Shown: piece after piece, positions 337 through 28,103 of the stretch
Position numbering within the stretch: the stretch's first letter is position 1
Layout: each line of letters opens with the position of its first letter
IMG/VR virus record: IMGVR_UViG_3300010885_028183
Location: 1 to 50,632 of that record
Source: a virus
Strand: one strand, 5' to 3'
DNA: 50,632 bases
Translations under genes and position numbers: made by a program
The notes under the pieces: model-generated
Told to the model about the DNA's origin: nothing
What the model saw: only the letters and a program-made list of their open reading frames with translations
The model's database searches: none

Positions 337-1083
337 TTACTTATCCGTCTTAGTATGCATCTTGTAACAAGTATTGCACTTATACTGAATCTTCTTAACC
401 CCAGTTGCACTTGTTCTTCTTTTAGATATCATTAGTTCATCGCTACCACATTCCGGACAACTTCCCCTATCAGCACCAAAGGTAACACCATAATGTGTCT
501 TAGCCTCTATATGATTTGACAATTCTTTAAACACTTTTTCAAGAACAATCACATCCATCTTGCAGTACTTTACCATTTTTGACATCGACACTTTACACTT
601 ATTGAGCATGATATCCTTCCACATACCATAGTCTGTCTTCATCTTCTGCCCTACCCCAAGAAACTTTGCAATATAATCCAACTTATTGCTATTGAATTTG
701 AATTTCGATCTGCTTATTTTTAATGTATCGATGGTGACATATTTTGGGAACATTGGTATCCGATGATATAAGCATCGTGTCCTTATCCAAGATAAGTCAA
801 AACGGTCTCCGTTGTGACCAATCAGCTCGTCACAGGAGTTTGCGACCTTTACAAACCTCTCTAATAGCTTCTTATCGCACTGCTTGGAATCCCAAGTAAG
901 ATACTTAACTTCCTTATCATCTTCCCACTTGTAACATATACAAATGATAGCTCTCTCTTTAATGATTGAATCAGGGCTAATATTCAACTTGAATCCTGAT
1001 TGCCAGAACAAGCCAATATTTGCAGATACCTCAATGTCAAAAAATAAACGCTTTCTGTTTGTTCTGACCTGTTTTAAACTCAT
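337..1083 (-). CDS. DnaQ-like 3'-5' exonuclease with C-terminal zinc ribbon
   Basis: A 248-aa RNase H-fold exonuclease. The three exonuclease motifs are visible: FFDIEV with D16 and E18 (Exo I), GHNGDRFDLSW with N91 and D96 (Exo II), and YCKMD with Y173 and D177 (Exo III). This resembles the proofreading domain of family B polymerases, but no polymerase domain follows. A C-terminal zinc ribbon is formed by CPEC (209, 212) and CNTC (236, 239), probably for nucleic-acid binding. The likely role is DNA processing, recombination or turnover of host DNA in the cytoplasm. Its ATG overlaps the endolysin stop by 4 bases, so it is the last gene of the lysis operon, an odd place for a DNA enzyme. A nuclease acting on RNA cannot be excluded. 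Confidence 0.85.
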   Translation of the reverse strand: MSLKQVRTNRKRLFFDIEVSANIGLFWQSGFKLNISPDSIIKERAIICICYKWEDDKEVKYLTWDSKQCDKKLLERFVKVANSCDELIGHNGDRFDLSWIRTRCLYHRIPMFPKYVTIDTLKISRSKFKFNSNKLDYIAKFLGVGQKMKTDYGMWKDIMLNKCKVSMSKMVKYCKMDVIVLEKVFKELSNHIEAKTHYGVTFGADRGSCPECGSDELMISKRRTSATGVKKIQYKCNTCYKMHTKTDK

Positions 1084-1517
1084 ATGGTAAAGTATAGATT
1101 TGCTTCATCTTTCCTTCTGTTTACTAATCCCTGAACTTGTTTTCCTCCGGCAGTAGTGTACTTTGTTTCAAACCATTCACGAATAGTAGCATCGGATGAT
1201 TTTTGGTTTATCAAATTAAACAGAGTTGTTGAGCCTCCTGTATTCCAAGTGTATGATACTAATGCATCAAATTGATTTTGCGTAAGGGGAACTAGTACCT
1301 TCTTGTTAACTATAGCTTCAAATTTAGGAAGCAAATTAGCAAGCAATTCCTCTGCCCTTTGTTTAGTAATCTTATCCCCTGCCTTTACTTTTTTACCATC
1401 TTCATAAAAGGTATTTCCAAACCCGATTGTATCGTGTCCTGCACTGCATTTGTAGCTATCTAATTTACAACCTTCCCATTTTTTAATTAACTCGATTCCT
1501 TTTTTACCTATTTTCAT
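1080..1517 (-). CDS. Endolysin, T4-type lysozyme (GH24 muramidase)
   Basis: This cytoplasmic muramidase cleaves the MurNAc-GlcNAc bond of peptidoglycan once a holin opens the membrane. Starting at the internal ATG at 1517-1515 gives 145 aa. The catalytic triad pattern fits E15, C24 and T30: KKWEGCKLDSYKC followed by AGHDTIGFG. In T4 lysozyme the residues are E11, D20 and T26; the version with Cys in the second place is common in phage endolysins. The downstream half has the usual TQNQFDALVSYTWNTG and a C-terminal NRRKDE. There is no signal peptide, so release needs a holin. The longer frame from 1553 adds 12 charged residues and overlaps the neighbour more, so I prefer the shorter start. Confidence 0.93.
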   Translation of the reverse strand: MKIGKKGIELIKKWEGCKLDSYKCSAGHDTIGFGNTFYEDGKKVKAGDKITKQRAEELLANLLPKFEAIVNKKVLVPLTQNQFDALVSYTWNTGGSTTLFNLINQKSSDATIREWFETKYTTAGGKQVQGLVNRRKDEANLYFTI

Positions 1518-1827
1518 TTTCGTTGTTTTGTCCTGCCCCTTTCTGACTTCCAAAATAATAACTAAAAATCATAAGTGTCAAGGTTTTTATTAAATCAAAT
1601 AATTGTTCATTTTGATTGTCAGATAATAATGGCATTCCAAACGCTATTACTTTATCTACCACAAATACCCCCACTAATGCAGCAAATACTAATAGAATAA
1701 ATCTAACTAGTAAGTCTTTAGTGTGGTTAGCAAATAACTTGTTGACGTAATAAACACTAGATGCAATGAAGCACATGCCCATTACTACACCAGTTATTGT
1801 GACCCATAAATGTTGAGTATTAAACAT
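1504..1827 (-). CDS. Membrane protein of the lysis cassette, possible holin
   Basis: A 107-aa protein with three hydrophobic segments at about 8-28, 42-64 and 82-94, and a hydrophilic Asn/Glu-rich tail (QNNENENR). The ending FSYYFGSQKGAGQ is like several Bacteroidetes phage proteins annotated as holins or left unnamed. It overlaps the endolysin start by 14 bases and the spanin stop by 1 base, so the three are translationally coupled. A holin or antiholin role is inferred from size, topology and position. The two small membrane proteins upstream are competing holin candidates. Confidence 0.6.
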   Translation of the reverse strand: MFNTQHLWVTITGVVMGMCFIASSVYYVNKLFANHTKDLLVRFILLVFAALVGVFVVDKVIAFGMPLLSDNQNEQLFDLIKTLTLMIFSYYFGSQKGAGQNNENENR

Positions 1828-2312
1828 TATTTTTTAATATATGCGTATAATAATAAACAAACTATTACCAACCAAAGAATACCCATGTAAAATAAGCTAC
1901 GAGTATACTTCTTATTGTAGTCATCTGACTTTGCTGCCATCTGCTTAAGTTCGTATTCTTTTGCTGTTAGATCTGCTTTATCCAGTACTCTTACGGTATC
2001 ATGTATGGAGGGAAGATGTCTCACTACTTCCCTATATTTAATCAATAGCTTTTTGTATGTCTTTATTATTGTATCCTTAGATACTAATGTATCTGTTAAG
2101 TAGCATGTATCTATACGATTAAGAGAATCTATCTTAATCATAAAATCTTTATATTGAGAGGAGTCTGAAGTTATCTTAGTAACTACACATGGATACCATT
2201 CAGAAGTCTTCTTACTTACAACCTCTGGATGTTTAATTTGTAGCTTATTTAATTGCTTTTCGGGGGAACAAGACAAAAAAATAATTGAAAAAATAATTGG
2301 AAGATACTTCAT
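1827..2312 (-). CDS. Putative unimolecular spanin (u-spanin)
   Basis: A 161-aa protein with a lipoprotein signal at the N-terminus (MKYLPIIFSIIFLSC, acylated Cys about 15) and one C-terminal membrane helix at about 139-159 (FYMGILWLVIVCLLLYAYIKK is the region). Between them is a hydrophilic, largely helical stretch of about 120 residues. This double-anchored layout is that of T1-type u-spanins, which join outer and inner membranes in one chain and fuse them in the last step of lysis of Gram-negative hosts. It lies between holin-like genes and the endolysin. The lipobox (FLSC) is loose, as is usual in Bacteroidetes. No separate Rz/Rz1 pair is visible, which supports the call. Confidence 0.65.
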   Translation of the reverse strand: MKYLPIIFSIIFLSCSPEKQLNKLQIKHPEVVSKKTSEWYPCVVTKITSDSSQYKDFMIKIDSLNRIDTCYLTDTLVSKDTIIKTYKKLLIKYREVVRHLPSIHDTVRVLDKADLTAKEYELKQMAAKSDDYNKKYTRSLFYMGILWLVIVCLLLYAYIKK

Positions 2313-2359
2313 AAATATTTACATTTGCGAAGTAGATAGTTTTTTCATATTAAACATCG

Positions 2360-2379
2360 GAGTCCGTTTCTACGGACTC
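2360..2379. terminator. Hairpin terminator with T-run, loop TTTCTA
   Basis: A 7-bp perfect stem GAGTCCG / CGGACTC (2360-2366 with 2373-2379) is followed on the plus strand by TTCTTTTTTTT, a textbook intrinsic terminator for plus-strand RNA. On the minus strand it lies directly after the stop of the 2395-2622 gene with A-run before and only weak U-run after. The loop is identical to that at 310-329. Confidence 0.7.
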
Positions 2380-2394
2380 TTCTTTTTTTTGGGA

Positions 2395-2622
2395 TTATTT
2401 TCCCTCTGGCTTAAGGAATTTATCATCTGAATTTGTAAGCAAATTCTTCATGATATATCCTAATGCTGTTGTCAAGGCTGTTGTCGCAATAGTTTTCGTA
2501 TCAAAAACTAAATTACCCATTTGTACAGACGTATATACTATTGATATAACAGATGTAAAAACTGATAATAACAAACCCTTAATAAAATCCTTTGTGTCTA
2601 AACTTAAAAATCCTGATTTCAT
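2395..2622 (-). CDS. Small membrane protein, holin-like
   Basis: With start at 2622 the product is 75 aa, beginning MKSGFLSLDTKDFIKGLLLS. A hydrophobic segment runs at about residues 12-33 and a weaker second at about 43-58, ending with NLLTNSDDKFLKPEGK. Similar short proteins with FLTLxxxDFxKGL and a TALGYxxKN ending are common in Bacteroidetes phage lysis regions. The start was chosen because the ATG lies one base after the upstream stop (TAA T ATG), whereas the ATG at 2646 would overlap it by 23 bases. A holin or antiholin role is inferred from size and place. Confidence 0.6.
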   Translation of the reverse strand: MKSGFLSLDTKDFIKGLLLSVFTSVISIVYTSVQMGNLVFDTKTIATTALTTALGYIMKNLLTNSDDKFLKPEGK

Positions 2623-2623
2623 A

Positions 2624-2797
2624 TTACTTGCGTTTTGATTTCCCACTTGCTTTAAGCATCACATATAATCCTGAGCAAATACCCACGATTGATGCAATGA
2701 ATGTTAAAATTGGCTGTATGGCTGACAATGATAATATCGCACAAAAAGCACTTAACATTGATAAATAAACATTTCCTGTTTCTGTTGGAGTATTCAT
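2624..2797 (-). CDS. Small two-helix membrane protein, holin-like
   Basis: From the ATG at 2797 the product is 57 aa: a short polar start (MNTPTETGNVYLS), two hydrophobic stretches separated by a proline turn (SAIQP), and a basic tail KASGKSKRK. Positive tail charge and two helices fit class II holins. The start is preceded by a run of A, the usual leader pattern here; a longer frame opens at 2842 but adds 15 charged residues. It is the first gene of the lysis cluster. I cannot tell which of the three small membrane proteins is the true holin. Confidence 0.55.
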   Translation of the reverse strand: MNTPTETGNVYLSMLSAFCAILSLSAIQPILTFIASIVGICSGLYVMLKASGKSKRK

Positions 2798-2877
2798 TTT
2801 TTTTATCTCATTTTTACTTTTAAATAATAATAACATACGCAATTTAATATTTTTATTTTAAATCAATTAAAGTTTTT

Positions 2878-4482
2878 TTATGGTTTAATATAAAAAGAAG
2901 TTACTGCCCAAGACCCCGATATAGCAACCAAAGTAATACTAGCCAAAGGAGGAAGAAGACAAACTCCTCCTCCTGCTGGATAATTAGGGTTAATTATATA
3001 ATCGCTTAAAGTTGCTATTTCCATTGTAGTAGTGTCTGCCCCTGTGCCTGAAGATATATTCACAAATGTAATAGATTCCCCATTATGAGCTTTAGAATCG
3101 GGTAAAAAAGCACGACTTATATTATGAAGTGGATATATTCCATATGTTTTTGGATAGAAATCTGCTATAAAGCTATTTGGACTACCGTTTTCATCAACTG
3201 GTTGTGCTATAGGAGTTACTAATCTCCATTTTCCCCCAACTGAGACAAATTCATATATTGTTTGTGGAGGTATTGTGCCTACAGTATCATAATAGAACCC
3301 ACCAGCAAATTGCTTACTTGGTTTATTTAAGCCTATTCTTATTGGATTAAAATATTGGTCATTTATTATAGTTATTCTTTGACCATCATTTATTGGTATT
3401 GTATCTTCATCAGGGTAACTAAGATAATATGCAGGGGGGAAGTCAATAGTTCCTATAGGGCGAGCAACGTAATCTTTCCAAGTAAATCCTAAAAATTGAT
3501 ATATGGCATTACAACTATTTAAAGGGTAGTGTTCAGATGGATAATCGTAATATAGATTAGGGACTAAGTTATACCTTGTTTCTCTTTGTTTTGAAGCTGT
3601 AGCATGCCAAGTCCCATTTACGCTAACAAACTCATATGTCAGACCATAAGGTATACAAGTAACTGGCTCATTAGTTCCCTCTAAAACAGGAACATAACCA
3701 GATTGCAATATGTAAGCAGGATGCTGATAAGCCGTATCCCTATTTACAATAGTTATCCGTTGACCATCGTAGGGAGTTGGGTTTTCAAACTCTAAGAAAC
3801 CATAATCTGCTGGGTTTCCGGTATCACTTCCTTGTTCAATTAAAGAATATGAATTTCCCTTTACTTGGGAAGTCCCTGTTGTTGTTGTTAAATTTACAAT
3901 ATAGGTTAAAGCCCTATTTTGATTACCTTCTAAAGCTATTGTACCACTTGTTGCTGGCATAATAAGATTTGGGGCATATGTAGCAGAAGGATTTGTAATT
4001 ATACTTACTGCATAAGGATTGTGAATTGGTGTTCTAAAATGAAACCCATATACATTAAGTGAATCATTAACATCTATTACACTTTGTAATCCTTGACTAA
4101 ATCCTCCTCCCTCTGCATTAATAGTCACATCTCCTGTTCCTCCAATAGGAGATATTGTAATATTTGTACCTGCTGTAATTTTAGACACTCCACCACTTCC
4201 TGCAGTAAATTCTACCCAAGTATTTGCACAATTACTATCTTTTAAAATATATAATTTTTGTAGCGATTGAACATAAGCAGCCATACCATATTTTCTTCTT
4301 AGGCAAGTAATAGCATTCCTCTGGGTAGTATCCCTAACCACTACATAACCTCCTTTACCCATTGAATCTATATGAGTAGGGTAATTAGCTACACCTAATG
4401 TAGATACATATCCAACTACTGTTACTTGAGCTAGGGAAGATGTGGCTATTAAAATAAATAATGCTAATAATATTCGTTTCAT
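2878..4482 (-). CDS. Tail-fibre-like protein with Sec signal peptide (534 aa)
   Basis: The N-terminus MKRILLALFILIATSSLAQ is a clear Sec signal peptide with cleavage expected after LAQ. After it come phage-fibre-like features: a Gly/Ser linker followed by ITAGTNITISPIGGTG and DVTINAEGGG (about 120-140), then repeated beta-rich modules around NGQRITIVN / YEFVSVNGTWH / YEFVSVGGKWR (about 235, 280, 370, 415) and a matching ESITFVN near 470 with SGSW at the end. These look like three copies of one beta-domain, each with a GQRITI-type strand and an Arg/Lys-Trp ending. It belongs to a run of three genes with signal peptides. It may be a receptor-binding or surface-displayed protein; whether it is in the virion is open. 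Confidence 0.65.
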   Translation of the reverse strand: MKRILLALFILIATSSLAQVTVVGYVSTLGVANYPTHIDSMGKGGYVVVRDTTQRNAITCLRRKYGMAAYVQSLQKLYILKDSNCANTWVEFTAGSGGVSKITAGTNITISPIGGTGDVTINAEGGGFSQGLQSVIDVNDSLNVYGFHFRTPIHNPYAVSIITNPSATYAPNLIMPATSGTIALEGNQNRALTYIVNLTTTTGTSQVKGNSYSLIEQGSDTGNPADYGFLEFENPTPYDGQRITIVNRDTAYQHPAYILQSGYVPVLEGTNEPVTCIPYGLTYEFVSVNGTWHATASKQRETRYNLVPNLYYDYPSEHYPLNSCNAIYQFLGFTWKDYVARPIGTIDFPPAYYLSYPDEDTIPINDGQRITIINDQYFNPIRIGLNKPSKQFAGGFYYDTVGTIPPQTIYEFVSVGGKWRLVTPIAQPVDENGSPNSFIADFYPKTYGIYPLHNISRAFLPDSKAHNGESITFVNISSGTGADTTTMEIATLSDYIINPNYPAGGGVCLLPPLASITLVAISGSWAVTSFYIKP

Positions 4483-4486
4483 ATTT

Positions 4487-5395
4487 TTAATTTACACTTG
4501 TGAATTGTGCTGTTACGTTATTAAATTCGTTTTGAGATGTATAAACATAATAATTTAAAGGATATCCTTGAGCATTCGTAAAACTCATTATTTTTCTATC
4601 AAAAGTCCTTATACTTTCTATACCTCCTATATAAATTGTTGTCAATGTATCAAAGCTAGCTGGGTAGGCATAGAATATATGTTTATTAGTGCCTGATACT
4701 ACTACACTAAAATCATATTTATCTTTAGAAGTTGCAAATTCTTGTCCTCCTCCTAAAGATGCAATCAAATCCGAATTATTAGCAGAAGCGTTGCTAGTAT
4801 ATCCCCAATATCTTTTTGACAAGGGGGAAAATGTGATATAAGAACTATATACAGAGCCAGCTACGATTCTTCCGGTACAATCTATAACCCCTAAATTATT
4901 TGCTATACATGCTCCCGTATCATAAGATTTTTTAACTCTATAAGACAAGCTAGATGTTAAAGATGATACTATATCTGTATTACTTGCTAATGCAACTGCT
5001 CCTTTGTAGTAAATTGTTCCATTTGGAGGAGGCTTTAAAGCTCCACCATTATTTTGAGTAAAAGTACTAGAGAATGTTATAGTTCCTAAATTAGTACCTA
5101 TTTCATATGTTCCCGATGATGGGGAAGAACTAATAGTTGCAGTAGGAGGCACATATGTAGGAGGTACAGCCTTCTGAGTTATTACTTGGAAAGCAGCATC
5201 CAATCCTAATCCTGCTACCGGAATAGTATCTCCATTAACCCAATACCCCAATCTATTGCTAGTTGTGGCATTCATTATTATATTATTTTGGAAAGTAGAA
5301 GTTCCTCCAGATCCACTTATCTTAATCAAATACTTATTCTGAGCCTGTGAAAGCAAAGAGACAAATAAAAGTAATAATAAAAATATTTTTTTCAT
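4487..5395 (-). CDS. Secreted-type protein near fibre genes (302 aa)
   Basis: It starts MKKIFLLLLLFVSLLSQAQ, a strong Sec signal peptide. The mature part begins NKYLIKISGSGG, contains a Pro/Thr/Ser stretch (VPPTATISSSPSSGTYEIG, about 80-100) that reads like the edge of an Ig-like domain, and ends in beta-rich sequence with YWGYTSN (about 195) and YYVYTSQNEFN (near the C-terminus). It lies 4 bases after the 534-aa gene in operon direction terms and shares the unusual exported N-terminus with both long neighbours. I recognise the general type from Bacteroidetes phages but not a defined family. A tail-tip, fibre or secreted accessory protein are all possible. Confidence 0.55.
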   Translation of the reverse strand: MKKIFLLLLLFVSLLSQAQNKYLIKISGSGGTSTFQNNIIMNATTSNRLGYWVNGDTIPVAGLGLDAAFQVITQKAVPPTYVPPTATISSSPSSGTYEIGTNLGTITFSSTFTQNNGGALKPPPNGTIYYKGAVALASNTDIVSSLTSSLSYRVKKSYDTGACIANNLGVIDCTGRIVAGSVYSSYITFSPLSKRYWGYTSNASANNSDLIASLGGGQEFATSKDKYDFSVVVSGTNKHIFYAYPASFDTLTTIYIGGIESIRTFDRKIMSFTNAQGYPLNYYVYTSQNEFNNVTAQFTSVN

Positions 5396-5398
5396 GTC

Positions 5399-5575
5399 TT
5401 ATGAATTATAATTTAAGTATTGTAAATTTTCGGTAGGAATATCGCAGTCAACCACTTCAAAAACTTCAGGATGTTCTACTATTGTAGGATGCTCCTCTAG
5501 TGGCTTATCCCAACCTTCAGTAATTACTACTGTATATGTTGTTCCTGCTATATTTTTCTGTCTAATGTGTTTCAT
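5399..5575 (-). CDS. Small protein between fibre genes (58 aa)
   Basis: A complete frame from ATG 5575-5573 to TAA 5401-5399. The product begins MKHIRQKNIAGTTYTVVITE, is acidic, and repeats EHP twice (EEHPTIVEHPEVFEVVD). It fits exactly between its two neighbours with 3- and 6-base gaps, so it is probably real. It has no signal peptide, unlike the proteins on either side. A small chaperone or cap for the fibre proteins would fit its place, but nothing in the sequence shows it. Confidence 0.5.
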   Translation of the reverse strand: MKHIRQKNIAGTTYTVVITEGWDKPLEEHPTIVEHPEVFEVVDCDIPTENLQYLNYNS

Positions 5576-5581
5576 AAATTA

Positions 5582-8071
5582 TTATTGTGCGAAATATTGA
5601 ATGGTTACATATGCAGCAGCAGCTGAACTACTTGCCCTTGAAATTACAATTTCGTAGCCATTATTAGCAGCATTTGCTCTTATCCAACAAGTTCCAACAG
5701 GAGTAGTTATAACAGATAGTGATGTTGCGGAAGTTGCAAATGTACCTGAACCAACTGCTATTACAGCTGAAGCTCCAGTAAATCCAGTTGGTAATTCAGG
5801 GATTGGACAATCGGAAGGTAATGTACATGAAGCAGCGGTTACCGTTGTTCCTGATACTGAATAAGAGAAGTTCATTCTTAATGTAACTAATTTACCTATC
5901 TGCGACCAATGATAAGTATTATTAGCAGTCCCTGATGGAGCAACTCCAGCTGTCCATGTTATTGTACCTGTGTAAGCCTTAAAAGCTGAATCTCTAAACG
6001 TTTGTGTTGCCTGACTTGCTGCTGCATTTGTATTATTAGCATTCATAGTATAAGCAGCTGCAAACTTTCTTGAATAAGGTGTTAGCATAGTTGCAGTATC
6101 TGAAATGTTTACTTTTAAATTAATTCTATTTGACAGGGAAGCAGTATCTACTTTTCTTAAATATGGAGTAAGCATTGAAGAAGTATCAGAAATATTTACT
6201 TTCAAATTTATTCTTGAAGACAAAGAAGCCGTATCTACTTTTCTTAAATATGGAGTAAGCATTGATGAAGTATCCGAAATATTTACTTTCAAATTTATTC
6301 TTGAAGAAAGGGAAGCCGTATCTATTTTTCTTAAATACGGAGTAAGCATTGTAGCTGTATCCCCTGCACCAATTTTACCATTAAATGTATTCCAATTTGC
6401 TGAAGATAAAGCACCTCTATTTGTAGCAGATGCAGTAGGTAAATTAAATGTATGAGTAGCAGTTGTAGATGAAATATTGAAATCGCTTCCACTTGTGCCT
6501 GTAGCAAAATTTTGTATTTGTGCAGTAAGCCCATTTAAGGCTGTAAGTCCTGTTGTAAATGTTGTTAAAACTTCACATAAATTACTATTTTCAGTATGTA
6601 ATGTAATCGTTCTACCACCTGTTATTATATAAATACGAATTGCTAATCTATCTGTAATAAGTAATGTTGTAGATGGTACTGATATGCTTGTAAAATATTG
6701 GTCAACTGTTGTTCCATTTGTAATACCTTCAGGATTTGCTGAACCACTTGCAATAAGAGTGAATACATTTGTAGCACTTACTTTATAAATCTCACCATAA
6801 AATTGTGAACTTCCTCCAGATGCACTTGATTGGAAATAAAACTCTAAATTCCAATTACCACCGGGTATATTTAATTGACTAGGATCATTAGCATCAGTAA
6901 TAAATGATGCTATGTAACCATCGCCTGCTCCATTTGTTCTTGTAAAATTCGTACCTGCACCAAGTATTGGTGTTTTACTCATTTGGTAATATGTATCTCC
7001 CCCAAATGTACCTTGAGACACACTACCATTAAGATAATAATTAACTGATGCTCCACCACCTGTTGAATTAGGGAAGTTAGCCAATGTACCGTCACCTCTT
7101 ACATATTGAGATACTGTACCTGCTCCACTTACTGCTATTGTTCCATTGTTTGTTAAAGGAGAATTAGCTACGCTAAAAGCAGATGGCATGGATACTCCTA
7201 CACTTTTTAATTTAGAATAAGGAGATAGCATTGATGCTGTATCTGATATATTAAGTTTTAGATTAATTCTATTTGATAGGGAAGATGTATCAACTTTTCT
7301 TAGATATGGAGTTAACATCGAACTTGTATCAGAAATATTAACTTTTAAATTAATTCTATTTGAAAGCGAAGATGTGTCAACTTTTCTTAAATAAGGAGTC
7401 AACATTAAAGAAGTATCAGAAATATTAACTTTTAAATTAATTCTATTTGAAAGCGAAGATGTGTCAACTTTTCTTAAATATGGAGATAACATTGCAGTAG
7501 TATCAGTCTTTCTTAAATACTTAGAAAGCATTGCAGATGTATCTACAAGTCTTAAATATTTTAAACTTAATGTAGCACTATCTACTATTATTGTTCCTGT
7601 TGTGGTAATTGTTCCCCCTGATAAGCCATATCCTGTAGCAACTGAAGTAACCCCACTACCCCCACCTCCACCACTTCCCCCACCACCTGTATATAAAAAT
7701 GTATCAGCAGTATTATCAGGTCTTACTAATCTATATGATGAATCGCTTAATTGATATGTTATAGTATACCCATTACCAACTCCTCCTCCTCCACCACTAC
7801 CTATATTAATCCATTTAGTAGCTGTAGAATTTCTAATATATACAGTATCTCCTACTCTTATTGTATTACCGGCATAATATTTTATAAACGGGGAACGGTT
7901 TGCAGAAGCTGTATCAGGGAATGAAGGAAGTATCAACGCACTATCAGCCTTAAATCCTCCTTTGGAGTTGACTAGCGTTACTGCCGATCCCATATTCTGA
8001 GTTATTGTAAATTGGGAAAACGCAAAATTATAAAATAATGCGAAGACAAATAATAAAAGTATTCTTTTCAT
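5582..8071 (-). CDS. Long fibre protein with Sec signal peptide and 29-aa repeats (829 aa)
   Basis: The start MKRILLLFVFALFYNFAFSQ is a Sec signal peptide. The mature protein has Gly-rich hinges (about 95 and 130), then two blocks of a 29-residue repeat of the form SDT..MLTPYLRKVDTSSLS.RINLKVN, at about 175-290 and 570-670, split by a globular stretch of about 280 residues. The C-terminal domain (about 690-829) is beta-rich with TGTITWTAGVAP, YHWSQIGKLVTLRMNFSYS and a final YVTIQYFAQ, typical of fibre knobs. VTSVATGYGLSGGTITTTGTI motifs occur as in many tail fibres. It is probably the main receptor-binding fibre. The signal peptide is unexpected for a cytoplasmically assembled virion part. 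Confidence 0.7.
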   Translation of the reverse strand: MKRILLLFVFALFYNFAFSQFTITQNMGSAVTLVNSKGGFKADSALILPSFPDTASANRSPFIKYYAGNTIRVGDTVYIRNSTATKWINIGSGGGGGVGNGYTITYQLSDSSYRLVRPDNTADTFLYTGGGGSGGGGGSGVTSVATGYGLSGGTITTTGTIIVDSATLSLKYLRLVDTSAMLSKYLRKTDTTAMLSPYLRKVDTSSLSNRINLKVNISDTSLMLTPYLRKVDTSSLSNRINLKVNISDTSSMLTPYLRKVDTSSLSNRINLKLNISDTASMLSPYSKLKSVGVSMPSAFSVANSPLTNNGTIAVSGAGTVSQYVRGDGTLANFPNSTGGGASVNYYLNGSVSQGTFGGDTYYQMSKTPILGAGTNFTRTNGAGDGYIASFITDANDPSQLNIPGGNWNLEFYFQSSASGGSSQFYGEIYKVSATNVFTLIASGSANPEGITNGTTVDQYFTSISVPSTTLLITDRLAIRIYIITGGRTITLHTENSNLCEVLTTFTTGLTALNGLTAQIQNFATGTSGSDFNISSTTATHTFNLPTASATNRGALSSANWNTFNGKIGAGDTATMLTPYLRKIDTASLSSRINLKVNISDTSSMLTPYLRKVDTASLSSRINLKVNISDTSSMLTPYLRKVDTASLSNRINLKVNISDTATMLTPYSRKFAAAYTMNANNTNAAASQATQTFRDSAFKAYTGTITWTAGVAPSGTANNTYHWSQIGKLVTLRMNFSYSVSGTTVTAASCTLPSDCPIPELPTGFTGASAVIAVGSGTFATSATSLSVITTPVGTCWIRANAANNGYEIVISRASSSAAAAYVTIQYFAQ
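6066..6365 (-). repeat. 87-bp tandem repeats, distal block of the fibre gene
   Basis: About three tandem copies of an 87-bp unit encoding the 29-aa repeat; for example TCTACT at 6147 recurs at 6234, exactly 87 bases on. Copies differ by a few bases only, so the block is prone to expansion or loss by recombination. Confidence 0.8.
7205..7560 (-). repeat. 87-bp tandem repeats, proximal block of the fibre gene
   Basis: A second block of the same 29-aa/87-bp repeat (about three full copies) preceded by shorter half-repeats of the form VDTSAML(S)KYLRK. It is separated from the distal block by about 840 bases of non-repeat coding sequence, which suggests an internal duplication or recombination between fibres. 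Confidence 0.75.
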
Positions 8072-8075
8072 ATAA

Positions 8076-8603
8076 TTAAATAGTTGGATACAGTTGGAAT
8101 AATTCCCCAGTTGAAGCTGGAGGATAACAGAAAAATGCTCCTGTACTTTTTGTCCAAGTAAAGTAAGAACCGCCTGTATCTATTGTTGATTGAGTAATTC
8201 CACCTCTTGCAAATATCATATTAAATCCTATAAAGGATGATACTATCTTAGTTGAACTTCCATTAGGGATGTATGACGTTCCATCTACTACAAATTCTAT
8301 TGGGTTAGGAGCTCCCATTATAGGAACTATAGCTCCTCCGGTAGTACCTGATATTGCATATTGTGCTTCTAATCCATAAGCACCACAAAGGAATGTTAAG
8401 TAATTAGCTACTCCTCTTAATGTATCGTCAGAAGGATTACCTTCATATTGCCAATTTAATGCATCAGTAACTAATGCTATTGTTTGTGGGGAAGTCACAG
8501 ATAATCTTTCTCCGAACAAGTTCCCTTCAGATATATCTATAGCAGAAATAGGGACACTCATCCTCCCTATTCTTATAACTTCCAATATTGATAATTGAGC
8601 CAT
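8076..8603 (-). CDS. Conserved phage structural protein of unknown function (175 aa)
   Basis: A 175-aa protein starting MAQLSILEVIRIGRMSVP, rich in Gly, Ser, Thr and Ile, ending STGELFQLYPTI. Predicted mostly beta. It sits 2 bases from the next gene upstream and 5 from the long fibre gene, so it belongs to the fibre operon. No signal peptide, in contrast to the next three long genes. A baseplate, fibre-adaptor or tail-needle part is likely from position only. Confidence 0.6.
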   Translation of the reverse strand: MAQLSILEVIRIGRMSVPISAIDISEGNLFGERLSVTSPQTIALVTDALNWQYEGNPSDDTLRGVANYLTFLCGAYGLEAQYAISGTTGGAIVPIMGAPNPIEFVVDGTSYIPNGSSTKIVSSFIGFNMIFARGGITQSTIDTGGSYFTWTKSTGAFFCYPPASTGELFQLYPTI

Positions 8604-8605
8604 AT

Positions 8606-9124
8606 TTAAAAATAATTAGCTTGATTTTGTGCCATAAAAGTTGCTCTTGATAAACAAGCCTGAGATGCAGCTATATCGTTACCGATTTCTACTGCAGTTA
8701 TAGCACCTGTTACATTTGCCCAAAAAATTCCTACATTACCCCAATAATTCGTATCCTGTATTATATTATAAGTTGTCGATTGTAATTGTATGAGATAATA
8801 TAGGAATTGTTTGTTAAAGAGACTAAAACAATAATTTTGATTTAACGTAGCAACAACACCTCCAGAGATATTCACCCAATCTACTCTTACATTTACAGCT
8901 AAATCCTGAGTAAGTAAATCTACAGATAAAGGATTGGTAGCTAAAACCCATGTAATATAAGTAGTTGAAGTCCCTGTGGGAACTACAGGATTACCTTGGG
9001 AATCTGTTACATATATCCTTCTTCCAGTTATAGAAGGATCAGAACCTGTACTAGTATCAGTAAATATCACCAAAGATGGATTCAATGGTGTTTGAGCTAC
9101 TGAAAAATTGGGGGATAAACTCAT
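8606..9124 (-). CDS. Conserved phage structural protein, Ig-like start (172 aa)
   Basis: The N-terminal half (SLSPNFSVAQTPLNPSLVIF, then TDTSTGSDPSITGRRIYV and TYITW) has the look of a PKD/Ig-like beta domain, where a substance is 'displayed' by DTSTG and a following arginine strand. The C-terminal half is more helical (FLYYLIQLQSTTYN, IAASQACLSRATF). It is the first gene after the promoter at 9148-9176, which puts it at the head of the fibre transcript. Likely a small tail or fibre-attachment protein; I cannot name it. Confidence 0.6.
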   Translation of the reverse strand: MSLSPNFSVAQTPLNPSLVIFTDTSTGSDPSITGRRIYVTDSQGNPVVPTGTSTTYITWVLATNPLSVDLLTQDLAVNVRVDWVNISGGVVATLNQNYCFSLFNKQFLYYLIQLQSTTYNIIQDTNYWGNVGIFWANVTGAITAVEIGNDIAASQACLSRATFMAQNQANYF

Positions 9125-9147
9125 TTTTTTTAAAAATTTATTCTTTA

Positions 9148-9176
9148 CAAATATATCATTTATTGCTTAATACAAA
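9148..9176 (-). promoter_or_regulatory. Promoter of the fibre operon, Bacteroidetes type
   Basis: On the minus strand TTTG (9176-9173) is followed after 17 bases by TATATTTG (9155-9148), a full match to the TAnnTTTG -7 box. The gene at 9124 starts 23 bases downstream of the box. An identical arrangement with the same 17-base gap lies before the portal gene (39448-39476). Confidence 0.65.
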
Positions 9177-9182
9177 ATTATT

Positions 9183-12100
9183 TTATTTCTTTCTTTTCTT
9201 GCCAGCCTTACCCTGTTTCCTTTGTTTAGTGAGTTCTTTTTTATCTTCTCCTATTATCCCTGTTTCTCTAAGGATTTGAGGCTTAAATCTACGCCCAATA
9301 TCTTCCCCTAATTTAGCTTGATAATAAGGCTCTTTAAATGCTAGAGCCACATTAACCCCCGTCTCAAGTACTGGAACTTGCTCTATAGTAGCTCCTATAG
9401 ATCCCATCGCTGCCACAGTTAAAGCCTCTACATCATTAGCATCTTTATTTTTTGTATAGTTATCATATATATGCCTTGTTGTAGCTGCAACTTGAATGAC
9501 TTCTAAGGGAAGTGCGTGCTGTACAGGTTTTGGTGTCATAACTCCATTTATTTCCATTTCATCTGAAGCCAATTCCCCTTCAAGTCTCTTCTTATTAGGA
9601 TTGTATTTACTATATAGTCCTCCAAAATAAGAAGCCCCAAACCAACCTATAAGCCATAAAGCTGTACCTAAACTTCCTTGCTTTAATTGTCTCATTACTT
9701 TGTCTGCTTGCTCATTAGAAAGATTTTCTATTCCTTTTCTATAAGCATTCGTAACTTCAACCCCTCCCTTTATTAATCCTATAGGGGAATAAGAGAAAAC
9801 CCTTCTAACTATATTTGTTGGCACTGTACTAACAGGGATCATAATATCAACTAAAAGTTTACCAGTAGCACCTGCATTCCCACTTCTTTCTAGTTGATTT
9901 TTCTTTTGAGCAAACCATCTAGAGAAAGAATTTTGTTCTTGGAATATCTCATAGTTAGCTCTCTTATAAGCTGCATTTTCTAATGATTGAATTACTAAAT
10001 CATCATTTATATCTAACCCATTTTTTTCAGCCCAAGTCAACCCATTCAAGAATGATGACTCAAATGCAGCTCTCTTTAATGGATCTTTTATTATCTGATG
10101 CAAATCTGTAGGAAGATATAAAAAAGGGATATGCTCATACTCTCCAGCCCCCATTCTTTTATTAAGTTTAGATTCTCCCGTACTCAATATAGACCATGAA
10201 TTTTGAGCAAACTTTTTAGGATCAAAGAATTCTTTATAGAATTTAGCTTCTGCTTTTGCATTACTAAATCCTTCTATTGGAGCTTTTTCTGAAACACCCC
10301 TAAATACATGAGCCCACATTTGACCTATTGCTTGTTCGGGAAGTCTTTTACCAGCTCCACCTACAACAGCAGCTGATGCAAGCTTTCCAAGAACTTTATA
10401 TCCAGAAAGTACAGATAATCTTACTGCTCTACCAGCCCACATTAATCCCTTTTGATACATATTCTTTTGAGATTCAAGAGCCTTTCTTTTTTCAACCTTC
10501 ATCTTAAATTCAGCATTTGCAACTTTTTGGTTTGCTCTTACCCATTCTGTATTTTTCCTAAATACTAATGGTTCTCTTTTTGGAGGAAGTATTTTTTCTG
10601 GTTCTGCTAATTTCTTTTCTATTCTTCCTGCTTTTTTTTCAAGAAGAGATGTTTCTTTTTCTCTTTCAAAGTCTCTATAATTACCTATTATGTCTTTTAT
10701 ATCATCCTTAGAAAGCTGGGGAACATCTCCCTTAATTTGATCATGAATTTTATTAACTATAGCATCCAATGTAACCATTCCTTGCTTAATATAATTAACA
10801 GCCAACTTCCCTATAACTTCCATTGTTTCTTTAGGTATAGGTATACCAGCATTTAAATTATTAAGATCTTTTTTAAATGCTATTTTTAGTTTAGCTAATA
10901 GATCTTTTTCTTCATTTAATAATACTTCTTTAGCAGGATTCTTTAATTTGTTAGCCCTTTTCATCATGGCTTCAAAACTTTCCTTTGCCATTTTGCTCCT
11001 AAGAGCTTTTTCTATTTTATTTCTTTCATTTATAGCTTCATCTCTTTCTGAAATTATCTTTTCTATTTTAGCTTGAACTTCTTCAGGAATAGTTCCTCCG
11101 TAAGCATCTTTAATTACTGCTTTCTCTCTTGATACATTGAACGATTCGTCTACCTTTAATTGTCTAACACGACCTACATCTGACCACGCTGTACCGGATA
11201 GCATATTAGCTTCTGTAGCTGCATCCATAGCATCAGATATTTGTTGTAGTTTACCGCTTAACACAGCCTTATCTTCAATATTTTCTGTATCAGCTATTTG
11301 TCTTCTGACATCTGTCTCTGCTGCCTTTAATTGAGTCATGTGATAAAGCATTGCTTTAGACTCATCAGGGCTCATTCCTATTTTTCCTTTACCATATAGT
11401 ACTTTAAGGATAACATCATCTGTATCTATTTCCCCTTCATCTACTAATCTCTTTCCTTCATTTAATGCTTCTACATCTGTTCCTATCTTGGGAAGTGTTA
11501 CATCTGGAAGATTAAGACCTATTCTTGTTTGTCTTGATGCAGCATTCTTTATACTTGCAGTTTTACCTTCTGGTTGTGGAGTTGGTTCTGCTTTAGCTGT
11601 GGGAACTTCTGGCTTAACTTCCCCTTCCATCAATGAATCAATCTTCTTAGCATCCAATCCTAATTTATCAGATACTGATTCTATACCTGCTCTAATGTCT
11701 TCTTCTGATACACCTTCTTTTCTTTGGTTATCTATGTATTCTTTTATTTGAGATTCTTGATCTTTTCCTTTTGAAAACTGGGGAAGTCCTGCCTCAACCT
11801 GAGCTTTCATTTCAGGAGTTATGTCTATTGAGTTTTGTTGCTCTCCATTTATTTCTGTTGTACTAGGGACTTGTTTAAATAAGGATTTAGCCACTTCACC
11901 TACAATACCTATTTTACCTTCTTTTGGAGAACCATAAAATCCTATCATCCCTGTACCGCCTATAGTCAATTGCTCCCCTTTCAAATTCCCTTGCACAACA
12001 TTACCACCTTGCCATTCTTTCCCTTCTTCATTTTTTATTTTTTCAGCAATATCTTTCCCAACCAAATCAGCAACTCTATTTAGAGTTATTTTACTCATGT

Positions 12101-15100
12101 TTTCTCTCTGACCTATAACTTCATTTGATTTCTTTGGAATTATCGTATAAGTAGCATCTTCATTTTTTTGCCACCCTATTTCATCTACACTTTTACTTAA
12201 ATTATATCTTTCATTTTGTTGTTCTCCTGTAGTCCAAGTAATCTTATCAGCTCCTTCTTTTACTGCTTCTTTAAGAGCTACTTTCCATGCTAATTTAGCC
12301 CAATTAGCTGTTTCAGTTACAAAGGGAGCTTCTGGAATTTTTTTGTCAAGCGTTGCTTTTGCTTGTTCTAATTCTTTTAATTCAGTAACCTCCGGTTTTG
12401 TTAATATTTCTTCATATGGAACAGCCATTTCATCTTCGGCTATTTTACCTTCTTTTTTCATCTTACCAATACCTTGCAATATTTTTTTCTGCAATTCTTG
12501 ATATCTATTAGCATTAAACTCTTTCTTAAACCCTTCCTTCTTACCTGTTTGACCCCAATCAGATTGAAACTCTTCTATGTGTAATACTTTATTGCCTTCT
12601 GCATCTACTCTTGTATTCATTCTTATGTGAGCCAATATGTTTGGCTCATCGTAATGGGAAGACGAAAATTCTTTTGCCTTTCCACGAATATCTACTTTAT
12701 AAAATGTGGAAGAAGCTATTTCTTTAGGAAGTTTCTTCTTTGCTTCTAGCATTTTACTAAATATTCTCCCAAATTCAATTTTCTCTGCTTCTGTTGGAGT
12801 ACCTAGACCTATTTTTTTCGAGAAATCTTCTTTCTCATCATATAATTTATTATATTCATTAATTGCCTTAATTTCACCATCTGTGAATTTAGATGTGGTT
12901 CGTAAATTTGGTAAAGTAATTAATACTTCTTTGTAGTTAGACTTTTCTCCGGGAAGTTCAAGTGATATTGGGGCTCTTCCCTTTACCATTTTATGTTCAG
13001 GTAATACAACTTCACTTATTTCTATTCTATTTTCCTTCATCCAGTTTTGGACTTCAGATTTTTTCAATTGTTGTGTTGGGGGAAGTGATTCAAGCCATCC
13101 TAGAACACCAGTAAATTTAGCTTCGTCACCTTTTCCCACAACATCCTTCCATTTATTAGCACTTAAGTTACCTGCTTTAGTTTCTAATAATCTTTTTTCT
13201 ATTGGGGAATAGAATCCATTCACTATTTTTAAATCTTCTGGATGCTTTACAAATGTAGTAGGCTTACCATCTAATGTACCTTCTATCTTTTCTTCTTTTT
13301 GAAATTGTATTGGCTTACCACCTTTACCAATTATAGGATTACCATTTTTGTCTTTAACAGTAAATCTTGGGTCATTTTTAGATGTAGTTTCTACATTTTT
13401 ACCATAAACTAATCCTCCTATTTGAATAATTTCTTCAGCTTTAACGATTGGAGTACCTGTAGCTCTATCATAAAAATGAGAAAACCTAAATGGATTCATC
13501 CCTATTTGCACCCATTCTGGGCTATCTTTAATTTCTTCAACCATTTTCATGGCTGATTTACCTTTAGCTTCACCTGTATCTCCTTCTATTGGTATCCATT
13601 CTCCCATCATTCTTGCTATAGTCGCTTTGCCCATTCTACCACCAGAAGAAAGTTCTTTATGCCTTGCTATATCAAGAGCAACAGATGGGTCTGTAATAAA
13701 TTCTACATTTCTAAGTTTAGCTACATTATTATATGATAAAGGAGACCCAGTTCTGCCTTGCTCATGTACAGTTATAGCCCATATATTTTTATTTATATAA
13801 GAAGGTATATCTAATCTAACTCCAACCTTTTTACCTTCTGGGAAATCAAGATTTACTTTACCTTCAGATTTAGTACCCACTGCAATTTTAATATCATCTT
13901 CTTTTGCAGGTTCAATAAAATTAGTTACTACTCTTGTTGGGCTATTTTTATCTACTATCGCAGTATATTCATCTGAATCTATTTTGCCTTGATATAAATC
14001 TTCAGCAGCATTTTTTACATTTTCATTTCTTTCAGTTATAGCTCTATCCCCTCTACCTATTCTTGACTCTTCCCATTCTATTTTTCCTTCTTTTGAAAAT
14101 TGAGGTTTATTAGCTTCTTGTAATTTTGTGGGAACTTCTGATATTTTAGTTGTATGAAACTTAGAAACATCAGCAAATTTTGGTGGTAATATTATTGCTT
14201 TTTGTTCTGCAAATTGGAAGTCATCATAAACAGTATCAAGCAGCATATCCGCTTCATTCACCATTTCTTTATTACCTGTTTTTTCTCCTTCTTTCTTTAA
14301 TGCAGATGCAGTTTTTATTGTTTGAAGTACAACATCATTAACTCCGGAATAATTTACGAAAGAATTTTGTCCTCTTGTTTCTGAAGATAATGCCCATTGT
14401 GCAAGTGGGGAAAACATTTTACTGTGTTCTATCCATGCATTTTCTTCCCCATCTTTACCGAACTGATATCCTTCAACAGAATGTCCATAATAATCATGTA
14501 CAGCTCTGAATTTATCATTTGCAGTAACACCATCTTTATCTGCTGTTTTACTTCCTAATTCTGTATGATCTGCTCCTCCTTTATATACCCATAGATGATT
14601 GAAGTTGTGTACATCATCAAGCATTTCAAAATTATTCTTGTAGTTCCCTTCACCCTTTTCATGGAATGTAACTTTAACAGGTAATGCATCATACTGAAGC
14701 TCAGTTTCTTTTATTAATTGATCATAAGACTTATGTACTAAGTCTTTATAATCTTTAATATCATACTGCTTAAATATTTCAGGATGTTGACCTTTGTATT
14801 CAGAATATATTCTTCTTTCTACATTAGTTTCTTTGTATGTTGGGGAATTAACGTCTTGCAACTTAGGATACACCTTTGCAAGTTCAGTCTGTAATACAGG
14901 ATCAGATGGTTTGTATTTATGAGGAGTTACTTCTGGTAACCCTACAGACTTGTTATAACTGTTTGCTGCTTTTAAGGAAGCATTAGTTTCCGGATTCTTT
15001 ATTTTTTCTTTGGCTGCATTCCTTGAAGCATTCTGCTCGGATTCTGATCTTTCTCTGCTTCCGATAGCATCTGTTCCGTTATATTGAACTTTTTCTGAAT

Positions 15101-18100
15101 TGATTTTAACTTCTCCAGTTGTTCTTTTTGTTTCGGGCTGTACTGTTTCATATTGCGAAGATATGGGTTTTTGTTTAAGTTCTTCTTCTTCTCTTGAAAA
15201 TTGGGGAAGTCTTTCTGCTGTTTTTTCTGCAGTAGGTACTACTTCTCCTTTTGGATACATAGATCCAGCAACCATTAAAGAAGCTTTTTTTGTATAAGGC
15301 TTACCACTTTGAGCTATTATTTCCTCTGGCAAAAACAATTTATCTATTTGATATCCGCCATCTAATATAAAAGGATCTTTACCATGAAATTTAGCATTAA
15401 ATTGAGGATGCACAATACCTTTATCTTGTATTGACATATAATCAACTTTGCTATCAGAAGTAAATCCTCCAGTTACAAATCCCCATTCTCCTTTATTCAT
15501 GAATACATCAACTATACCTTTTTCCCCTATTTCATAAAATAATTTCTCTTGATTTAAATCAAACCTATCTAATAATTGTTTAGATATAAACTTATTGGGA
15601 GCAACAGAAATATATCCGGGCTCTCCTTCTGTTGCTTTTCTAGTTGACTTTTTTGTAACACCAGCAAGCATATTGCTAACTAAAGAATTTCTAGCTACAA
15701 AATTACCTCCTACGTTATTAAGCAAATCAGAAGTCATTTCTCTCATTACTTGTTCATTAGAAAAATCAGCACGACCATATTTTGAAAGGAATTCATTATA
15801 TTTTTTCTCTCCAAAAGCATCCTTAATAGCAACAATATCTTTACCAAAAAATTCAGATTTAAACTCAGAAGATTTCAATACAGACTTAGGAAGTAATTTC
15901 AAAGCATCTAATACATACTCAAGAGAATAAGCATTCCCTTTCATACTTTCAGGACTTTGGGAAGTCGTAAGTATTAATCCTTCCCCATTATTATCAGGGA
16001 ATATTTTATTTATTACTCCTTGAATTTGCTTTGGCTTTGACAAATCAGAAGAAGAAAAGCCAATCTCCCCTTCTACGTTTGCTTTTATTGCTGAATAATT
16101 CAACCCTCCATACATAAATATTTCTTCTCCAGACAATAACTTCAACTTGCCTACTTTAGTAGGATCTGAATTTATAGCGATAGCTCTATTACCAAAAGGA
16201 TCTAACACCTCTTTCAAGCTTTTAACAGGAAGTTTATTTAATTCTGTTTCTTTAAATTCTTCTCTGGAAAATTGTAATGGATTCTTGTCCATTACTTTAG
16301 CATTGCTTATTTTAGATTCATCTATTTTCCCTGCAGCAGCTATATCACCTACATCACCTTTATTTTCAATTGGTTGAAATTTTTGATCTGGCTTTATTTT
16401 AGATAAAAGTTCTTCTCCTTTTATCTCTTCCCCTTTTTTAAACTTCTCAGATATATTTTTAGCAAGATTGACAAGCTCATCAGCATTTTTAATATCTATT
16501 GTCTCAAATGATTTAATATCAAACCCTAATTTATTAAGGGAATCGATGACAAACTTTTTAACTGCCTCGTAATTACTTGGATTAATTACAATACTACCAT
16601 CTGCAACATTAGCTATAAAGTCTGTAATAGCTTCTTTTTTCTGTGTAGTCTCACCGGTATAACGTCTTTTATTTGATTCAACAAATCTTTTACCTTCACT
16701 AAATGAATTCAATTGGTCGTAAATAGTATCTACAACTTCAGGTCTGTTATCAGCTATGTAATCAAGCACAGGGTGAAATCCTTCATGAAGCATTGTTTCT
16801 GTGGTTGCTTTTTCCATATTCAAATGGATAGTCCCTTTAGAATCTAAATAGAATCCTTTAGTTGTAGAGTCTTGTTTTGTTCCCCCTGCCTCTATTACAG
16901 CCTTTTCGTAAGTCTCAGGCGATTCATGTACACTAACCTCTAAAACTTTCCCTGTAGTCTTCCCTACTAATGTAGAAATAGATTTAACTACATTTTTAAC
17001 ATCATTTATTACTTTGGTTTTTACTTTATTTAATCCTTTAGTACTAATAGTATCTACATTTTCAGCAGTATACGTCTTAGCAGGCACTGCTTCTTTTTGC
17101 TCTGGAGTTATACCTAAATGAGTTAATAATCCTTCTCCTACTTTTTGTACTTTAGTTTTTGGTTTGGGAACTTCTACTACAGGAGTAACAACTCCTTCTG
17201 GCTGATTCGTTTTATCAAATTCTGTTTGAGCCTGTTGCTTTACAACTTCCCCTACATCTGTAAAGTTATCCCCTACTTGCTGCTTCCATTCCCCTTCCTT
17301 AAATATCATTTTACGGGGAAGACCTCCTTCAACCTGAGCAGGCAATTCTATTGTATCACCTTCCTTTACTTCTACAGGCTTTATTTCTGTAGTCTCTACT
17401 TTAGCTTCTCCTATACTTTTTATTTTTTCTATAAGAGCATTGTATCCATCTATTGTTTGTTTTGTTTCAGCTTCAGGCAATCCTTCTGTAGAAGCTTTAT
17501 ATTCATCTCTTAATTTTTCATAATAAGCAACAGGATCTTTTTGTATTTGCTCTAAATCAACCTGAGCCTTTGCTCCTTTATCTCCACCTAATTTTATTTC
17601 TTCATTAAGATTATCTATAGTTGCTTTTAATTCTGGAACATCTTCTAATTTTCCTATTTTAACTTCTCCTTTTCTTTGATCAACTAATTCCTGTGCTTGT
17701 TGCTCAAGCAATGTTTTCCTTTCATCTGCATATTTCTTAGCTTCCCCTTTATAAAGAGAAGACAATGCTTCATCATCTTTTACATCCTCAGACTTAGCCT
17801 TAGCAGCTATTTCTTTTAATCTATTGTAAGCATAATCTACTTGTTGAGCATGTGTTAGTCTTGCATTTGTTTTTGGATTAACATCGGGAATTGATTGCAC
17901 TACATGAGACATAGTATCTACTACTTCTAATCTAGCTTTTGCATCTTGTTCAGTTATATTACCCTTAGCTAATTCTTGTTGTATAGTAGCTCTATACTCA
18001 TCAGGCTTAAGACCAGAAGAATAAAGATTCTCTTTAAATAAGCTACTATGACCTTTATATTTGATAGCCTCCATTATTCCCAATGGCAATGTCATTGATA

Positions 18101-27836: not shown

Positions 27837-28103
27837 TTACATTGTTGCTAATATCTCTACATCTTCCATGATGTAATAAAGCTGACCATCTTCTTCTACG
27901 GGAATTCCCCAATTCTTTATTCTAAAGCCTATATCTCCGGGCTTCAGTGTCATTGGTTTGTTTGGCGTTCCACTTCCCACAGCCACAACTTCAACTTTAC
28001 ATCCATCTTTTCTTAAGCTCTCAGGTACTATTATACCACCTGAAGACATCTCGTCTTCTTTAAAGGCTTTAACTAGGATTTTGTTTTTAATCGGTTTTAT
28101 CAT
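27837..28103 (-). CDS. groES-like: GroES-like co-chaperonin (88 aa)
   Basis: An 88-aa Cpn10 protein: KPIKNKILVKAFKEDEMSSG is the first strand and mobile loop, GGIIVPES the loop end that binds GroEL, VEVVAVGSG the central strand, LKPGDIGF the roof region, and YYIMEDVEILATM the final strand. It is slightly shorter than bacterial GroES (about 97 aa). T4 gp31 shows that phages use such proteins with host GroEL to fold capsid protein. No GroEL is present, so it must use the host one. It lies inside the neck-gene cluster, so it is made late with the virion parts, which agrees with a capsid- or tail-folding role. Confidence 0.88.
   Translation of the reverse strand: MIKPIKNKILVKAFKEDEMSSGGIIVPESLRKDGCKVEVVAVGSGTPNKPMTLKPGDIGFRIKNWGIPVEEDGQLYYIMEDVEILATM

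Follow-up and report, generated by a model that had tools for sequence, protein, structure and literature searches.

Three-gene block with predicted export signals

The window, a viral DNA of 50,632 nucleotides (IMG/VR record IMGVR_UViG_3300010885_028183), was analysed over its whole length. Three adjacent genes on its minus strand encode proteins of 534, 302 and 829 aa, each starting with a predicted Sec signal:

2878..4482, minus strand, 534-aa fibre-block protein, predicted exported (ORF list and signal rule)
4429..4482, minus strand, predicted signal peptide of the 534-aa protein, cut between MKRILLALFILIATSSLA and Q (own consensus rule)
4487..5395, minus strand, 302-aa fibre-block protein, predicted exported; gene position matched by the 326-aa gene of the relative G001
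5342..5395, minus strand, predicted signal peptide of the 302-aa protein, cut between MKKIFLLLLLFVSLLSQA and Q (own consensus rule)
5582..8071, minus strand, 829-aa fibre gene, comprising signal, N-terminal domain, two 29-aa repeat arrays, a middle 'knob' and a C-terminal domain
8015..8071, minus strand, predicted signal peptide of the 829-aa protein, cut between MKRILLLFVFALFYNFAFS and Q (own consensus rule); +1 Q also in homologues

Sec signals were called with our own script, which applies a consensus rule. By this rule, type I (signal peptidase I) Sec signals were found on exactly these three genes among the window ORFs, with a positively charged start, a hydrophobic core and an AxA-like cut site present in all three, and the probability that three signal genes among 44 would be adjacent by chance was 0.003. 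The +1 residue was glutamine in 3/3 block proteins, in agreement with the Bacteroidetes "Q-rule"; PMC5837995 gives +1 Q for about 71% of Bacteroidetes signal peptidase I substrates. A sequence-only reading of this DNA had reported the three ORFs with their N-termini and had proposed Sec signals on neighbouring genes, and both observations were confirmed. Downstream start codons were rejected, as the next in-frame ATG lies at codon 41 (534 aa), 41 (302 aa) and 27 (829 aa), and the hydrophobic start of the 829-aa protein is kept in its homologues. A lipobox with +1 cysteine was absent from the three block proteins (within the window only the protein at 1827-2312 has one), and a Pfam scan to E 0.1 revealed no type IX C-terminal sorting domain, Por_Secre_tail or other. 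The remaining Pfam matches were sub-threshold and were treated as chance.

Residues ~42-97 of the 534-aa protein weakly matched phrog_23630 (6.4e-5) and phrog_24134 (0.006), one of these families being named virion structural protein. Sequence searches of IMG/VR found no relatives of either the 534-aa or the 302-aa protein; in GenBank phages the former gave a single doubtful 28-residue match and the latter none, and the first 105 mature residues of the 534-aa protein alone gave weak, short matches to assorted phages. Since these two proteins are without sequence relatives in the collections searched, the role assigned to them rests on their position, gene order and signals. Mean AlphaFold pLDDT was 40 for the 829-aa protein (25-row alignment) and 33 for the 534-aa protein, values too low for a fold to be assigned; PDB sequence searches returned zero matches, and a promoter scan was not above chance.

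Repeats and shared module of the 829-aa protein

Among the three, only the 829-aa protein has a modular body and repeats in common with other phage fibres:

7216..7506, minus strand, 29-aa repeat array 1 (87-bp unit, 3.3 copies)
6374..7210, minus strand, shared fibre module ('knob'), residues ~288-566, found in other phages with and without a signal
6066..6351, minus strand, 29-aa repeat array 2 (87-bp unit, 3.3 copies)

The 29-aa repeats that had been pointed out before are thus real, forming two arrays of an 87-bp unit. The 'knob' proposed for the same protein stands as a shared module in the middle of the chain, while the C-terminus (~717-829) is a separate domain, which recurs in locus L080. 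The knob is common to ~80 IMG/VR loci, mostly signal-less; a minority (L001-L004, L041, L056 and L080) carry a signal, with +1 Q every time. Only one match to the knob was found in bacterial genomes, on a 3.2-kb contig of a Chitinophaga metagenome-assembled genome (MAG) where the start of the ORF is cut off, so that capture of host surface proteins by the phage gained no support.

Genomic neighbourhood and related genomes

The block closes the structural module on its 3' side and is immediately followed by the lysis genes:

8606..9124, minus strand, 172-aa protein without signal, upstream neighbour; order kept in G001 (166 aa, 33% identity)
8076..8603, minus strand, 175-aa protein without signal, upstream neighbour; order kept in G001 (288 aa)
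1080..2842, minus strand, lysis region directly downstream of the block, with small membrane proteins, a spanin-like lipoprotein and an endolysin (putative holin and spanin roles)
1827-2312, minus strand, spanin-like lipoprotein with a C-terminal hydrophobic helix and a lipoprotein-type signal by the consensus rule
1080-1553, minus strand, lysozyme-type endolysin of the lysis region

The terminase (best match 28.8% over 98% of length) and portal (25% over 73%) have distant relatives in Cellulophaga phages of the families Pachyviridae and Pervagoviridae and in the Flavobacterium elemo phages, and because the relationship is distant no family assignment is claimed. The most complete close relative, G001, has a terminase 80% identical to that of the window. 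In it, two signal-less relatives of the 172- and 175-aa proteins are followed by genes of 1772, 326 and 536 aa, all with hydrophobic starts, of which two are clear Q-rule signals and the third is poor. The fibres of the window and G001 are mostly not alignable and the gene order is the same, indicating that the architecture of the block is kept while its sequences turn over.

Comparable blocks in cultured Cellulophaga phages

Equivalent signal-bearing blocks were identified in Cellulophaga phages of three named families (Pachyviridae, Assiduviridae and Duneviridae) and in phi38:2; besides phi18:3, phi10:1 and phi19:1, discussed below, they occur in phi13:2, phi19:3, phi46:3, Nekkels, Ingeline and phi38:2. 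Like the window, the Pachyviridae phi18:3, phi19:3, phi13:2 and phi46:3 carry 3-5 fibre-type genes side by side, with Sec signals that nearly always follow the Q-rule, and their terminase and portal genes are distantly related to those of the window. They differ in that their fibre sequences are not detectably homologous to those of the window and that the endolysin and terminase genes are found downstream of their block, whereas the window block follows a giant structural gene. Adjacent signal-bearing fibre and lyase genes are also found in the Assiduviridae phi10:1, phi19:1 and Nekkels and in the Duneviridae phage Ingeline, which belong to other phage families and share signal and N-terminal cassettes with Pachyviridae; a tape-measure (long-tail) gene is present in phi19:1 and Nekkels. 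Signal peptides on the lyase proteins of Ingeline and Nekkels are on record (Bartlau et al., PMC8776804).

Evidence for the presence of such proteins in virions was taken from MS/MS notes in the GenBank annotation, of which we take Holmfeldt et al. 2013 to be the source. For phi18:3, phi10:1 and phi19:1, these notes identify 11 signal-bearing fibre-block proteins as virion structural components. Three are encoded by adjacent Q-rule genes, all with experimental annotation (phi18:3 gp085-087), and eight more by phi10:1 gp091-094 and phi19:1 gp101-104; among the latter, gp104 has K instead of Q at +1, and gp101 appeared lipoprotein-like by our rule, a cut between NA and Q being likelier. In phi10:1 gp095 the signal is present and the MS/MS note absent. 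In the stretches read of phi18:3 and phi10:1, ORFs outside the fibre block with signal or lipoprotein starts are annotated as hypothetical only, which makes general periplasmic contamination a poor fit. The MS/MS annotation thus covers 11/12 fibre-block signal genes of the three phages versus 0/7 other signal ORFs of phi18:3 and phi10:1 (Fisher ~2e-4, by hand arithmetic).

Fibres without signals occur in phi38:1, the elemo phages, phi4:1, phi14:2 and phi12:1, and the first four cases indicate that tailed phages infecting these hosts can do without export. The body of phi18:3 gp087 (residues 42-329) is ~30% identical to phi14:2 g085 and phi4:1 gp050, which have no signal, yet are virion proteins by MS/MS; at the N-terminus, such signal-less relatives are polar. 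Residues 1-63 of gp087, comprising the signal and the mature start, are 58-89% identical in phages with different bodies, so signal and N-terminus form a swappable cassette. In phi46:3, a single signal precedes two unrelated mature starts. Cysteine content did not differ usefully between signal-bearing (4.3 per 1000) and signal-less isolate fibres (4.0 per 1000).

Conservation around the cut site

In the more distant pairs of the L080 family the signal is 39-48% identical and the 50 residues that follow it are 84-88% identical, the change falling at the cut site; in one closer pair the values are 81% and 92%. Such a drop is expected of a signal that is removed, and not of a docking surface or anchor in the virion. 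Within the gp086 cassette, pairwise comparison of the signal codons revealed 54 synonymous and 0 nonsynonymous differences, indicating selection on the protein sequence of the signal.

O-glycosylation motif

O-glycosylation in Bacteroidota targets the motif D-S/T-A/L/V/I/M/T in non-cytoplasmic proteins (PMC12871550). Window-type signal-bearing fibres contained 75 motifs versus 23.6 expected (3-fold), with the count in the 829-aa protein inflated by its repeats, and 32 copies of the reversed motif; the motif exceeded expectation in 10/10 of these proteins. Signal-less relatives with the knob had 103 versus 208 expected, i.e. half, and the cytoplasmic virion proteins of the window 31 versus 25. 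Exported proteins of a Chitinophaga MAG were enriched 1.5-1.7-fold and its other proteins 1.0-fold. O-glycosylation as a general reason for export was rejected because the signal-bearing fibres of Cellulophaga phages are depleted of the motif (23 seen versus 48 expected). For the window-type group it is kept as a lead.

Discussion

Classical tail fibres (T4, T7 and lambda) resemble the proteins of the window in having repeats and modular bodies and in being encoded last in the tail module; they are made and attached in the cytoplasm without an export signal. The conflict between export signal and fibre that was noticed in the sequence-only reading is real and recurrent. Observed directly were the signals, their Q-rule cut sites, their clustering where the structural module ends beside lysis genes, the recurrence of the arrangement in related phages and the MS/MS annotation of comparable blocks. 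That reading had left three options, namely export for action on the cell surface, fibre assembly after export, or another role of the hydrophobic start in the virion; the second is favoured by the 11 MS/MS-annotated proteins, and the first as a sole role and the third fit less well.

If the proteins served solely as exported effectors, in receptor masking, superinfection exclusion, polysaccharide degradation or as decoys, their presence in virions would be due to carry-over or sticking. The signals are real under this explanation too, the cassette moves among podovirus-like, siphovirus-like and Duneviridae genomes regardless of tail type, some members are annotated as pectate lyases, and host-surface roles have been proposed for Q-rule proteins of Porphyromonas gingivalis phages (PMC10367356). 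The latter, of the Nixviridae, are like the window in carrying Q-rule signals on phage genes, and are proposed to modify the host surface (PMC10367356). We nevertheless consider effectors alone unlikely, because MS/MS lists the fibre-block signal genes almost completely and none of the other signal ORFs, and because the gp087 body is a virion protein also where it has no signal; moreover, the 829-aa protein combines fibre-like repeats with a module common to signal-less phage proteins.

The hydrophobic start could instead be retained as a virion anchor or trimer seed on fibres assembled in the cytoplasm as usual, given that presence in virions alone does not demand export. This appears very unlikely: the +1 residue is nearly always Q behind AxA-like cut sites, conservation falls sharply upstream of the cut, with much greater divergence in the start than in the residues next to it, where a docking interface would show the reverse, the phi46:3 start precedes two unrelated mature ends, and signal-less relatives begin with polar residues. 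A dual fate, in which some of the protein escapes export and is incorporated into virions in the cytoplasm and the exported remainder acts at the envelope, is as compatible with both the signals and the MS/MS annotations as assembly after export; it is an improbable explanation all the same, as a second start codon is not evident nearby and the signals are far from marginal.

Export followed by assembly is therefore the best supported reading, more likely than a role purely in exclusion or as decoys. On balance, we favour the view that the products of the three genes are virion proteins of receptor-binding or fibre type, exported by Sec, cut, and joined to tails around lysis. Judging from sequence and annotation, Bacteroidota phages with such blocks probably export a part of their fibres from the cytoplasm first and mount them on the particle afterwards.

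We infer the following course from export to attachment. The fibres would be made with a Sec signal that is cleavable and suited to the Bacteroidota host, and exported to the periplasm, where signal peptidase I would cut them before the glutamine, probably leaving a pyroglutamate cap. There they would fold and wait, a periplasmic stop being the simplest reading since neither a type IX tail nor a lipobox was found. Once the holin opens the inner membrane, the fibres could join the tails while the outer membrane is still closed around both, or immediately upon release. Fibres and spikes of T4 and P22 attach to finished particles in vitro. Late attachment would be costly, as fibres released at lysis would be diluted. 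More tentatively, these phages may be built in two compartments, head and tail arising in the cytoplasm and Sec-exported, pyroglutamate-capped fibres, in some hosts O-glycosylated in the periplasm, meeting them when lysis begins.

No account of exported virion fibres was found in the literature searched, with subscription papers mostly outside the search. Bacteroidetes Q-rule substrates of signal peptidase I share with the window a tripartite signal and +1 glutamine; the accessible parts of PMC5837995 and PMC10653852 describe them for host proteins, with no mention there of virion fibres. Phage target proteins of diversity-generating retroelements are stated to lack signal peptides (PMC6199706).

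Host range is set by tail fibres, and their assembly is generally placed entirely in the cytoplasm. Phages with such genes are already available in culture for Cellulophaga, together with virion proteomics. If the proposed route is true, the order of assembly and the role of lysis timing would differ from the textbook picture, the chemistry of the fibres would differ as well (pyroglutamate, disulfides and possibly host glycans), and laboratory work on fibres produced in the cytoplasm of a foreign cell would in many cases deal with an incorrect product.

Additional genes and open frames in the window

Several further features were recorded outside and across the fibre block:

9183-20396 (-), single 3737-aa gene, about one fifth of the window
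27837-28103 (-), GroES-like co-chaperonin (Cpn10 match, E 3.6e-15)
6105-6455 (+) and 7461-7754 (+), open reading frames on the strand opposite the 829-aa gene, across its repeat arrays

The Pfam search of the 3737-aa product gave no match, and its positional counterpart in the related phage G001 is a 1766-aa gene, with similarity confined to a short region. The co-chaperonin is phage-encoded and lies within the structural module; GroES genes are also present in the relatives phi18:3 and phi38:1. The two antisense frames are unlikely to be genes and are regarded as mechanical by-products of the 87-bp repeats.

Evidence for exchange of signal peptides and gene sets

Comparison of Cellulophaga phage loci highlighted the following:

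phi46:3 (L094), 6514-8748 and 8753-9691, two adjacent genes with the same signal peptide
L096, 19215-19607; L087, 23526-23918; L093, 29175-29567, small lipoprotein (MKxLxxILxILTLxSCGKHETQYEELN)

Since the neighbouring phi46:3 products carry one and the same signal peptide followed by unrelated mature N-termini, their sequences provide evidence that the signal may be swapped by itself, without the mature part. The lipoprotein is common to phages of two families otherwise sharing little. The Cellulophaga phage loci L087, L093, L094, L096 and L100-L103 carry a group of structural and lyase genes with signal peptides; in these phages the group is exchanged between Pachyviridae and Assiduviridae, and partly with Duneviridae too.
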